This document shows positions 27,744 through 30,859 of a DNA stretch of 64,000 nucleotides, one piece after another. The stretch spans positions 1,516,409-1,580,408 of the forward strand of contig NZ_CP059599.1 of assembly GCF_022369455.1 (NCBI RefSeq), given 5' to 3'. Numbering within the stretch: position 1 is the stretch's first letter; every line of letters begins with the position of its first letter. The DNA is from Campylobacter sp. RM5004. GTDB taxonomy: Bacteria; Campylobacterota; Campylobacteria; Campylobacterales; Campylobacteraceae. Position numbers and translations under genes: made by a program. The notes beneath the pieces were generated by a model. It saw only the letters and a program-made list of their open reading frames with translations. It ran no database searches and was not told the origin of the DNA.

Positions 27744-28832
27744 TCATATAAACTTTAAAATTTCTTTTGATATTGTTTTTAGTATCGCACTAGCAAAATC
27801 ATTTATAAATTTAAAGTCTATTTGTTTATTTTTTGAAGGTAATACGATATATTCGTTTTTTACTTTTTCCCAACTACCCTTATTGTCCCAATTGTATTTT
27901 CTCATAACTTTAGAAATAGAACTTACAAAAAACAAACTTTCATTTTCATTTAATACCCTAACTTGATATTTTATAGCATAAGCATCTTGAAATATTGTAA
28001 AATCTTTGCTTTGATAAAAAACTGGACATTCTCCATTAGAAGCAATAGATATAACATTTTTCAAAATTGTAGTATCTACCATTGGCACATAAACACTTAG
28101 TCCTTGATTTTGAGTTGTTGAAGTAAGTGCAGGTAACACGAACTCACCTTGCTTATATTTCGGTAAATAGGAGCCTTTATAGCTCAACTTATTTGTTTTT
28201 ATTTTTTCAAATAAACTACCTAGCCTATAATCATTCCAAACAATACAACCGCTCTTAAAATCTTTTAAAGCTTTTGCTTCATCGCTCGTTAAGTTCATAT
28301 CTAATTTTTTGTCAGCTAAGTATTTTTTTACTTGTGATAGACCTAATCGCCTAATTTCACTCATAAAATCACCAATAAAACTTAAATTAATTCCACTATT
28401 ATCTATTGGTAGCTTTACAATGCTTTCATTAAATATTTTATCTACATCTCTAACCAAAACAGATAATAATTTTGATTTTTGATGATTAAGTATTGTGGTA
28501 AAAAAATGTGCCATATTTTCATTAATTTGAAATTTACAATCAATTTTTCTAACAAATTGACCTGCATACCACTTTCTTTTTCTATAAAAAAAGTCCATTT
28601 GTAATAAACCTAAACTCCAACTTTTGGCATTGTTTAAATTAGAATCATTTACAAATCCAGTACTTTGCAAAATTCCTTGGTTTTGTGATGTTCTAGTGAT
28701 GTAATCGTATTCGTTGCCGCTAACAAGCTTGTCTTTATTAAAACTTTTTGTCGCATTTATACTAAATAAATCACCTAATTTATATTCAGCCCACTTAACG
28801 CTTTTTAAACCATCATTAAGTGGGCTTAGAGC
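27744..28832 (-). CDS. Specificity (HsdS-like) domain read in the -1 frame of the nuclease-methylase gene
   Basis: An open frame of 362 codons carrying a type I/IIB specificity module. It opens ALSPLNDGLKSVKWAEYKLGDLFSI, a typical target-recognition-domain start, and later repeats the form WNDYRLGSLFEKI, so there are two half-domains. No ATG, GTG or TTG occurs in frame until a TTG at 28670, which would cut about 54 residues off the first domain. The frame joins the upstream methylase ORF at an A AAA AAG heptamer followed by a stem-loop, so I infer expression by -1 frameshifting. A simple frameshift mutation is the alternative. Confidence 0.7.
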   Translation of the reverse strand, partial: ALSPLNDGLKSVKWAEYKLGDLFSINATKSFNKDKLVSGNEYDYITRTSQNQGILQSTGFVNDSNLNNAKSWSLGLLQMDFFYRKRKWYAGQFVRKIDCKFQINENMAHFFTTILNHQKSKLLSVLVRDVDKIFNESIVKLPIDNSGINLSFIGDFMSEIRRLGLSQVKKYLADKKLDMNLTSDEAKALKDFKSGCIVWNDYRLGSLFEKIKTNKLSYKGSYLPKYKQGEFVLPALTSTTQNQGLSVYVPMVDTTILKNVISIASNGECPVFYQSKDFTIFQDAYAIKYQVRVLNENESLFFVSSISKVMRKYNWDNKGSWEKVKNEYIVLPSKNKQIDFKFINDFASAILKTISKEILKFI

Positions 28833-28838
28833 TTTTTT
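28788..28838 (-). other. Candidate programmed -1 frameshift signal (slippery heptamer plus stem-loop)
   Basis: On the minus strand, A AAA AAG (28838-28832) lies in the methylase reading phase, one codon before its TAA stop. Five bases later begins a perfect 11-bp stem: AGCCCACTTAA (28826-28816) with TTAAGTGGGCT (28798-28788), around a 17-base loop. After a -1 slip the next codons are GCT CTA AGC, open into the specificity domain. The same heptamer and a similar spacer drive E. coli dnaX frameshifting. No strong Shine-Dalgarno-like enhancer is seen upstream. Confidence 0.7.
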
Positions 28839-30859
28839 AACAATTCTTCATCTTTAATAATATTTATTATCTCCCACGATAAAAAATCGCCAATTGTTTT
28901 TACAAAATCTTCTAATTTTGGTATAGTGTCAACTGGGGCTACTTGATTCCAATCAGCTCCATTTTCTGGATCTATTGTACTTTCATAGTACTCATTTGCA
29001 CTAAAAATTTTAAGCTTTGTTTTGCCAAACCTAACTAAATCTACCAATTCTTGGTATCTAACTTTTGCATTATCAATATCAATTAAATTTGAATTTGATT
29101 TTTTACGAGCATTTCTTGAATATCCATCGTTTGAAAAGTCAATAAACTTTACAACTTCATCTTTTTCATGTTTTTCGCCTACTCTAAATACATAAACATA
29201 TGTTTGCACGCTTGATTTTCCTACAAATAAATCATTTGGCATTTTAATGCTTGCTATTAGAGTATTATTTTTTAATATCTCTTTGTTATATTCTATTGCT
29301 TTTCCACTACCTGCAGAACCTTGAATTATAACCGACGCATAACCTTTGCTCATCATAGATAATGCTTGTTTTACAAATATCATTCCACATCCATCTGCTG
29401 AATATGGTGGGTTTAAAACGAAAGCTGTTGCAGGGAATTTTTCTCCTTGTTTATTAAATTCATACTCTCCATTAAAATCATATAAAGAATCCTTATTTAA
29501 TATATTAGAACTTCCATCTCCCATCAAAATCATATTTAAAATAGCAAGCATATAAATTTCAGGTAAAACTTCTAAACCTAAAAGTTGTTCAGCTTTAATC
29601 TGGGCTATTTTTTTAGCTAATTCATCAGGGGATTTTATGTTTTCTTTTGCATTATTTATCATTTCATTCATAGCAGCGACTAAAAGCCCAGCTGAACCAG
29701 TAGCAAAATCCCAAACATAAGAATTCATATCAACTCTTGCTAATTTTGCTAAAAGCGTTGCAACGTATGGTGGTGTTAAAACAACATCATTTAATTTATC
29801 TTGTGTGAAACCAAGCCAATTATACATTTCATTAAATAACTTGCCCGTAAAATCAGTGCTTAGATTAACTTTATAATAAAAACCTAATTCATCTACAATC
29901 TTAACAAATATTCTTCTTATTTGACTTTCTCCATCTTTTACTTTGTTTAAATTTTCATTAGTTAAAAGATTTTCAAAAGCTCTTAAAATAAAGTCTTTTT
30001 TATCTTGCGGAATGCTTCTTTTATCTAAAAAAGCTTTGATTTTTCTTAGTATTATATCGCCGTCTTGATTACCTAATTCTGACAAAGATTTTAAATCTTT
30101 TTTATCAAGTGGAGCAACCCCACTAGCTCCTAAAGTAGCCATAATGGTAGCTACTACTAAATAAACTCTATCTTTTTCTGATATACCCTTTTCATTTGAA
30201 TATATATGCTTATTTAAGTTTTTAATAATACTATTTAACTCTTGCTCTCGCTTAATCCTTAAAGCCTCTATTTCGTCATCGTTTAGATTGAGATTATCAC
30301 AATCTTTTATAAAATCATCAAAATGAGTTTTTTGTAAAAATGATAAATCAGTGTATTTTCCAATCTCTTGTCCTATACCAAAATTATCTTTTGATACCAA
30401 ATATACTCCTATTTCATGACTCAACTTATCTAAATATTTATAACCTGTAACTCCGATTGCTATGATTTTTTCATAATTTGTGTGTTCTAGCAAGGCATTT
30501 GCATAATGAATAGCACCATTTACTGCATAATTTTTTATGTTATTAAATTGAAAAACACCATTTTCATCTTTATTAAAAACATTATTTTGTTTATCTAATT
30601 TTACTAATTTGTCTTTATAACCCTTATACTCTATAAGGATTGGATAGAAGTTTCCAAATTTATCTTTTAATAATAATTTTGCATCAGGTCTATTCCCCCC
30701 GCCCATTCCACTTTTTGAATAGTATTCATTTAAAGCATAATCTACTTGAGTATTTAAACTTTCTTGCTCTAGCTTATAATCAAGCCCATAGTTTTTAAGC
30801 CAATTATTAACCATATCAGCGATATTTGGTTCTACTGATTGAATTTTTATTTTTGCCAT
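28826..30859 (-). CDS. Nuclease-methylase subunit of a type IIB/IIG-like restriction system
   Basis: Protein of 677 aa, larger than ordinary HsdM. The N-terminus carries a PD-(D/E)XK-like nuclease site, RPDAKLLL...PILIEYKG (P58-D59, E77-x-K79). The N6-adenine methylase core follows: motif I DFATGSAG (384-391) and motif IV NPPY (483-486). The architecture recalls BcgI subunit A, where cleavage and methylation share one chain and a separate subunit gives specificity. No separate hsdR lies alongside. The ATG follows TAGGAG. The ORF ends at a candidate frameshift signal that would fuse it to the specificity domain (1038 aa in total). Confidence 0.82.
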   Translation of the reverse strand: MAKIKIQSVEPNIADMVNNWLKNYGLDYKLEQESLNTQVDYALNEYYSKSGMGGGNRPDAKLLLKDKFGNFYPILIEYKGYKDKLVKLDKQNNVFNKDENGVFQFNNIKNYAVNGAIHYANALLEHTNYEKIIAIGVTGYKYLDKLSHEIGVYLVSKDNFGIGQEIGKYTDLSFLQKTHFDDFIKDCDNLNLNDDEIEALRIKREQELNSIIKNLNKHIYSNEKGISEKDRVYLVVATIMATLGASGVAPLDKKDLKSLSELGNQDGDIILRKIKAFLDKRSIPQDKKDFILRAFENLLTNENLNKVKDGESQIRRIFVKIVDELGFYYKVNLSTDFTGKLFNEMYNWLGFTQDKLNDVVLTPPYVATLLAKLARVDMNSYVWDFATGSAGLLVAAMNEMINNAKENIKSPDELAKKIAQIKAEQLLGLEVLPEIYMLAILNMILMGDGSSNILNKDSLYDFNGEYEFNKQGEKFPATAFVLNPPYSADGCGMIFVKQALSMMSKGYASVIIQGSAGSGKAIEYNKEILKNNTLIASIKMPNDLFVGKSSVQTYVYVFRVGEKHEKDEVVKFIDFSNDGYSRNARKKSNSNLIDIDNAKVRYQELVDLVRFGKTKLKIFSANEYYESTIDPENGADWNQVAPVDTIPKLEDFVKTIGDFLSWEIINIIKDEELLKKL

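Follow-up and report, generated by a model that had tools for sequence, protein, structure and literature searches.

The window, i.e. the whole stretch of 64,000 nucleotides that we analysed, carries on its minus strand an ORF with an ATG start for an RM subunit of 677 aa (28826..30859), the product expected when no shift takes place. This protein fuses a PD-(D/E)xK nuclease stretch (PDAKLLLKDKFGNFYPILIEYK at residue 58) to an N6-adenine methylase with motif I DFATGSAG at 384 and NPPY at 483. It matches the Pfam profile N6_Mtase (3.4e-18) and the PADLOC profile REase_MTase_IIG, which denotes a Type IIG RM (1.6e-226). Downstream of RM lies an open specificity (S) frame (27744..28847, minus strand), positioned at -1 relative to RM and matching Methylase_S (1.5e-23) and Specificity_II (3.1e-64); its two Methylase_S stretches represent two target-recognition domains. 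Solved structures gave no sequence match to RM or S.

The 3' end of RM reads TTA AAA AAG CTC TAA. A first-pass annotation of this DNA had described a methylase ORF of 677 aa ending in an in-phase A AAA AAG, CTC and TAA, and verification of the coordinates placed the slippery heptamer A_AAA_AAG at 28832..28838 and the TAA stop, one codon (CTC) past it, at 28826..28828, both on the minus strand. The S frame is open through the heptamer, and its first ATG, GTG or TTG is a TTG at 28670, 54 codons past the slip site, just as the annotation had claimed for a start-less S. Translation likewise verified that a slip on the heptamer opens a fusion reading frame of 1038 aa: the predicted RM-S protein (27744..30859, minus strand) would consist of 676 RM residues followed by 362 S residues and would read ...EELLKK|ALSPLNDGLKSVKWAEY... 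across the junction.

Five nucleotides past the heptamer starts a stem formed by a 5' arm, AGCCCACTTAATG (28814..28826, minus strand), and a 3' arm, CGTTAAGTGGGCT (28788..28800, minus strand). The spacing agrees with the first-pass annotation; the 11 bp and 17-nt loop given there have to be revised, because two further pairs, one of them G-U, can be added, resulting in 13 bp and a 13-nt loop. The stem has an energy of -19.5 kcal/mol compared with -11.0 +/- 2.7 in shuffles (z -3.2). In the RM gene of the window, 1.9% of positions hold an in-phase heptamer, amounting to a ~12% chance of finding one in the 7-codon overlap. Jointly, the heptamer, the correctly spaced stem, the matching frame and the missing start go far beyond chance.

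Relatives of the locus and their frame classes

We searched genome contigs (Campylobacterota and other groups), viral contigs, plasmids, phages and E. coli genomes. No homologue was found for comparison in the genus-mates of the window; loci were found in Campylobacterota, Bacillota, Bacteroidota, Spirochaetota, Planctomycetota and Pseudomonadota. Among 147 non-redundant junctions, S is located at -1 in 104, at +1 in 22 and fused in frame in 17, and the remaining 4 fit none of these classes.

A FastTree phylogeny of 140 RM proteins, in which long branches leave some positions unsure, separates two clades with 100% support. The larger one has 122 rows, and the -1 arrangement is seen in 98 of these; the other, with 18 rows, is BcgI-like, and its S is either fused to RM or possesses an overlapping start of its own. 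In this outlying clade S lies at +1 and its start, mostly ATG, overlaps RM or is nearby. Fused forms have several separate origins within the 122-row clade. A single indel would suffice to fuse the two frames, and most lineages remain unfused. The first-pass annotation had named two arrangements that would refute its proposal of a programmed shift. One of these, a normal start for S, was seen only in the outlying clade with overlapping S starts; the other, a single intact frame, occurs only as a minority of fused genes.

Selection on the heptamer, its phase and the stem

Survey of the overlap in which both frames are open revealed an in-phase X_XXY_YYZ heptamer in 100 of the 104 -1 junctions, against 13.8 expected from each RM gene's own in-phase heptamer rate. 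The loci without a heptamer are L106, L139 (own S ATG), L079 (short S) and L155 (Pasteurellaceae). Five loci added later (L164 and four from E. coli) bring the number with a heptamer to 105. The motif differs between lineages, with GGGAAAA in 46 loci, GGGAAAG in 38, CCCAAAG in 11, AAAAAAG in 4, AAATTTT in 3, AAAAAAA in 2 and CCCTTTT in 1. These heptamers encode five different kinds of codon pairs (GK, PK, KK, NF and PF) and synonymous recoding would retain a heptamer only 9% of the time on average, indicating that the motif is kept by rule and not by the peptide. The RM stop is found 0 or 3 nt past the heptamer in 89/105 loci and at most 24 nt past it.

Three of the motifs used by the restriction family, CCCAAAG, GGGAAAG and AAAAAAG, are the three best -1 motifs measured in E. 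coli, where the best motifs reach up to 54% shifting with a strong stimulator (PMC4066793). GGGAAAA, the commonest motif of the family, was called inefficient in E. coli (PMC4066793); its carriers are mostly bacteria other than E. coli. An SD-like core of at least 5 nt is present 3-20 nt before the heptamer in 40/105 loci, compared with 3.0 expected, and these elements sit ~10 nt before it. No clear upstream SD-like element was seen in the window or in the CCCAAAG group.

Most stems of the family have 8-17 bp and start 4-7 nt past the heptamer. Among 55 non-redundant sequences that share one geometry, 96.7% of cells are paired, whereas slid controls of the same sequences show 35-49% pairing. 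Double-change cells number 31 in these sequences versus 9.3 +/- 3.6 when shuffled (0/500); as the sequences in the covariation test are related, the shuffle counts cannot be read as probabilities. Since the stem lies within S-coding sequence, we recoded the S frame synonymously with each gene's codon use as a control. Recoded sequences form 8.3 +/- 0.2 of 12 pairs versus 11.6 observed (55 loci), and 54 of the 55 loci individually have more pairs than their recoded versions (p <= 0.05), indicating that protein coding alone does not account for the preservation of the stem. In L032 and the L061, L063, L067 and L071 groups, stems that differ in sequence and size occupy the same place, those of the latter four groups being longer. 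Within the loop, which is unpaired, the third codon position of the -1 frame is the most variable (0.58 vs 0.46 and 0.34), as translation of this frame from the heptamer onward would predict.

What these comparisons show is the anatomy of the junctions and, family-wide, selection acting on the heptamer, its phase and the stem. The homologue test proposed in the first-pass annotation, namely conservation of heptamer, phase and stem with compensatory changes, was passed, and in at least six phyla, not in Campylobacter alone.

Synthesis of the S subunit

We propose that the window contains a Type IIB/IIG BcgI-like operon whose S is made only via programmed -1 frameshifting, and assign this reading a probability of about 0.9. 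It is inferred from sequence, with no expression data and no measurement of the shift; the slip itself is strongly supported by the selection on heptamer, phase and stem, and both its occurrence and its rate remain inferences. Ribosomes at A_AAA_AAG would be held up by the stem downstream. A fraction of them would re-pair one base back and enter S, producing RM-S, and the others would stop at the TAA and release RM.

Could S instead be translated by coupling, as happens for EcoKI hsdM-hsdS, with ribosomes that stop at the RM stop reinitiating close by or at a non-standard codon? This is true of the outlying BcgI-like clade, with its overlapping or nearby starts at +1, and even within the frameshift clade L007, L012, L031 and L057 display ATGA or GTGA at the RM stop. 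However, no S start codon of the EcoKI type was found at or near the RM stop in the window, where the -1 codons read AAA GCT CTA, nor does the window meet the BcgI criterion of a separate S polypeptide with its own start, S being a -1 continuation instead. Upstream of the conserved Trp, the open S frame is free of ATG, GTG and TTG in 45/105 loci of the family; in the remaining ones starts fall at scattered codons with no common position. The RM stop of L021, L026, L028 and L033 lies well past the slip site, either within the 5' stem arm or beyond it. The SD-like elements, we infer, are placed too far from the ATGA to serve an S start. As coupling also leaves the heptamer and the stem unexplained, we regard it as very unlikely.

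That a once fused or coupled gene has merely been broken by a frameshift mutation, or misassembled, is scarcely credible. Single fused forms do exist among the relatives and restriction genes often have broken frames, but the S of the window is intact and conserved, and the same -1 offset, heptamer and stem recur in ~100 relatives from six phyla. Transcriptional slippage at the A run, conceivable given the six As of the window and the seven of L013 and L142, has equally little in its favor, as the runs are only three or four As long in most relatives (GGGAAAA, GGGAAAG, CCCAAAG) and the spaced stem and codon-phase rule are translational features.

If S is made by programmed frameshifting, one RM and one RM-S would form an (RM)2S unit and no free S would be made, so that the slip rate would set the subunit ratio. 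The subunit make-up of BcgI is indeed (RM)2S (PMC4027205, PMC3874165). Equal amounts of RM and RM-S would need ~50% shifting, a level known from dnaX (cited in PMC3711429) and also reached by a CCCAAAG construct (PMC4066793). An engineered M-S fusion of EcoKI works as one M plus one M-S and requires added free M in vitro; in EcoKI the end of M is close to where each recognition domain begins (PMC3510504). That the slip serves a stoichiometric purpose is an inference, which we consider probable though far from settled. We lean with similar confidence toward a broader proposal: the clade, in at least six phyla, would set its RM:RM-S ratio by recoding while swapping the means, namely several -1 motifs, a prfB-like +1 site (three Campylobacteraceae genomes) and fused genes whose retained -1 slip makes the short form.

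The arrangement is similar to that of E. coli dnaX in its A_AAA_AAG and downstream stem, in the SD-like element upstream in many family members, and in its two products, whose ratio is thought to match a complex. It differs in that the gene and the stem are others, and in that the dnaX shift leads to the short form, whereas here it leads to the long form (except in the fused L095 and L102-L104). With BcgI and Type IIB enzymes it shares an RM subunit that matches their profile and an S with two recognition domains; the S of BcgI is a separate chain, whereas the start-less S is predicted only joined to RM. The EcoKI M-S fusion, by contrast, is man-made, and the natural EcoKI overlap acts by coupled reinitiation, not slippage. 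The -1 frameshifts of IS3 and IS911 use the same heptamer classes and downstream structure (PMC4066793), but in mobile-element genes. For the NsoJS138I C-REase fusion, also a restriction gene, -1 frameshifting was proposed from sequence; there the shift product was tested and none was seen, and a regulator and a nuclease are fused, not S (PMC3850674).

The H. pylori systems HP1472/HP1471, JHP1365/JHP1364 (Hpy99XXII) and HpyUM032XIII are BcgI-like as well and have a poly-G tract in S. For the first two, no S start after the RM stop was reported, and in 2013 the authors judged the H. pylori BcgI-like systems inactive, most likely from the missing S start, and added a start (PMC3936762). HpyUM032XIII, a system of this type, is active as a methylase both in its native setting and after cloning (PMC4450513). 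Those of our loci that combine CCCAAAG or GGGAAAG with a poly-G tract in S fit these genes, and we infer, without a match by name, that they are those H. pylori genes.

No paper that we found links a restriction-specificity gene of Type II to programmed ribosomal frameshifting, many subscription papers being outside the search. The main text of the recoding surveys contains no restriction system (GeneTack, PMC3711429; PMC4066793; PRFect, PMC10885494), and none is named in the portion available to us of a recoding review (PMC5009743). Within the same scope, no paper was found to report a restriction enzyme built in this way. The enzyme type and the recoding type are each known; their combination, with apparent ratio control, is new. 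As far as we found, programmed frameshifting would here build restriction enzymes for the first time, and the family would be a widespread instance of it in bacterial genes outside transposons. The proposal would answer how S is made in systems dismissed as start-less and inactive, including those of H. pylori. RM and RM-S from one message would also address, in a way open to testing, the question of where fused RM-S enzymes find enough RM domains (PMC3874165). The proposal would further imply that annotation pipelines mis-start or discard S: in the E. coli copies, RefSeq begins S late or lists it as a partial pseudogene.

Variant junctions

Three loci of one genus (L051, L060 and L066, from three Campylobacteraceae genomes, the family of the window) have a full-size S at +1, and their junctions read AAAAGGAYTTA CTT TAG C. 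Neither an S start nor a stem was found at these junctions. The CTT_TAG_C after AAGGA resembles what we take to be the prfB +1 site.

Among the fused genes, L095 and L102 (both G_GGA_AAC) as well as L103 and L104 (both G_GGA_AAG) have kept an in-phase heptamer and a 10-11-bp stem. A -1 slip in these genes reaches a stop after 2-9 codons and would yield RM alone, the arrangement of dnaX, which argues for the slip mechanism. Most fused genes (e.g. L017, L025 and L043) show no convincing slip signal, suggesting that some lineages can do without RM as a separate product. For fused genes of the C. concisus group, which read TTA AAA AAG GAT AGT with an immediate -1 stop, a dnaX-like reading was rejected as weak, no strong stem being present. 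The RM proteins of L065 (fused) and L066 (split at +1) are 98.4% identical; judging from this pair, junction and S seem to have been swapped between loci by recombination.

In L101 the stem has lost one C (CCCCC to CCCC), putting S out of the -1 frame; this is probably an off or broken copy. Poly-G tracts of 8-21 are located ~600 nt into S, between the two recognition domains, in L059, L069, L072, L074-L077, L097, L099 and others, and point to phase variation of S length stacked on the frameshift. The E. coli copies (L161 in phage PhiR12_3, L166-L170 in prophages) come in two alleles, G_GGA_AAG TAA and A_AAA_AAG CAG TAA.
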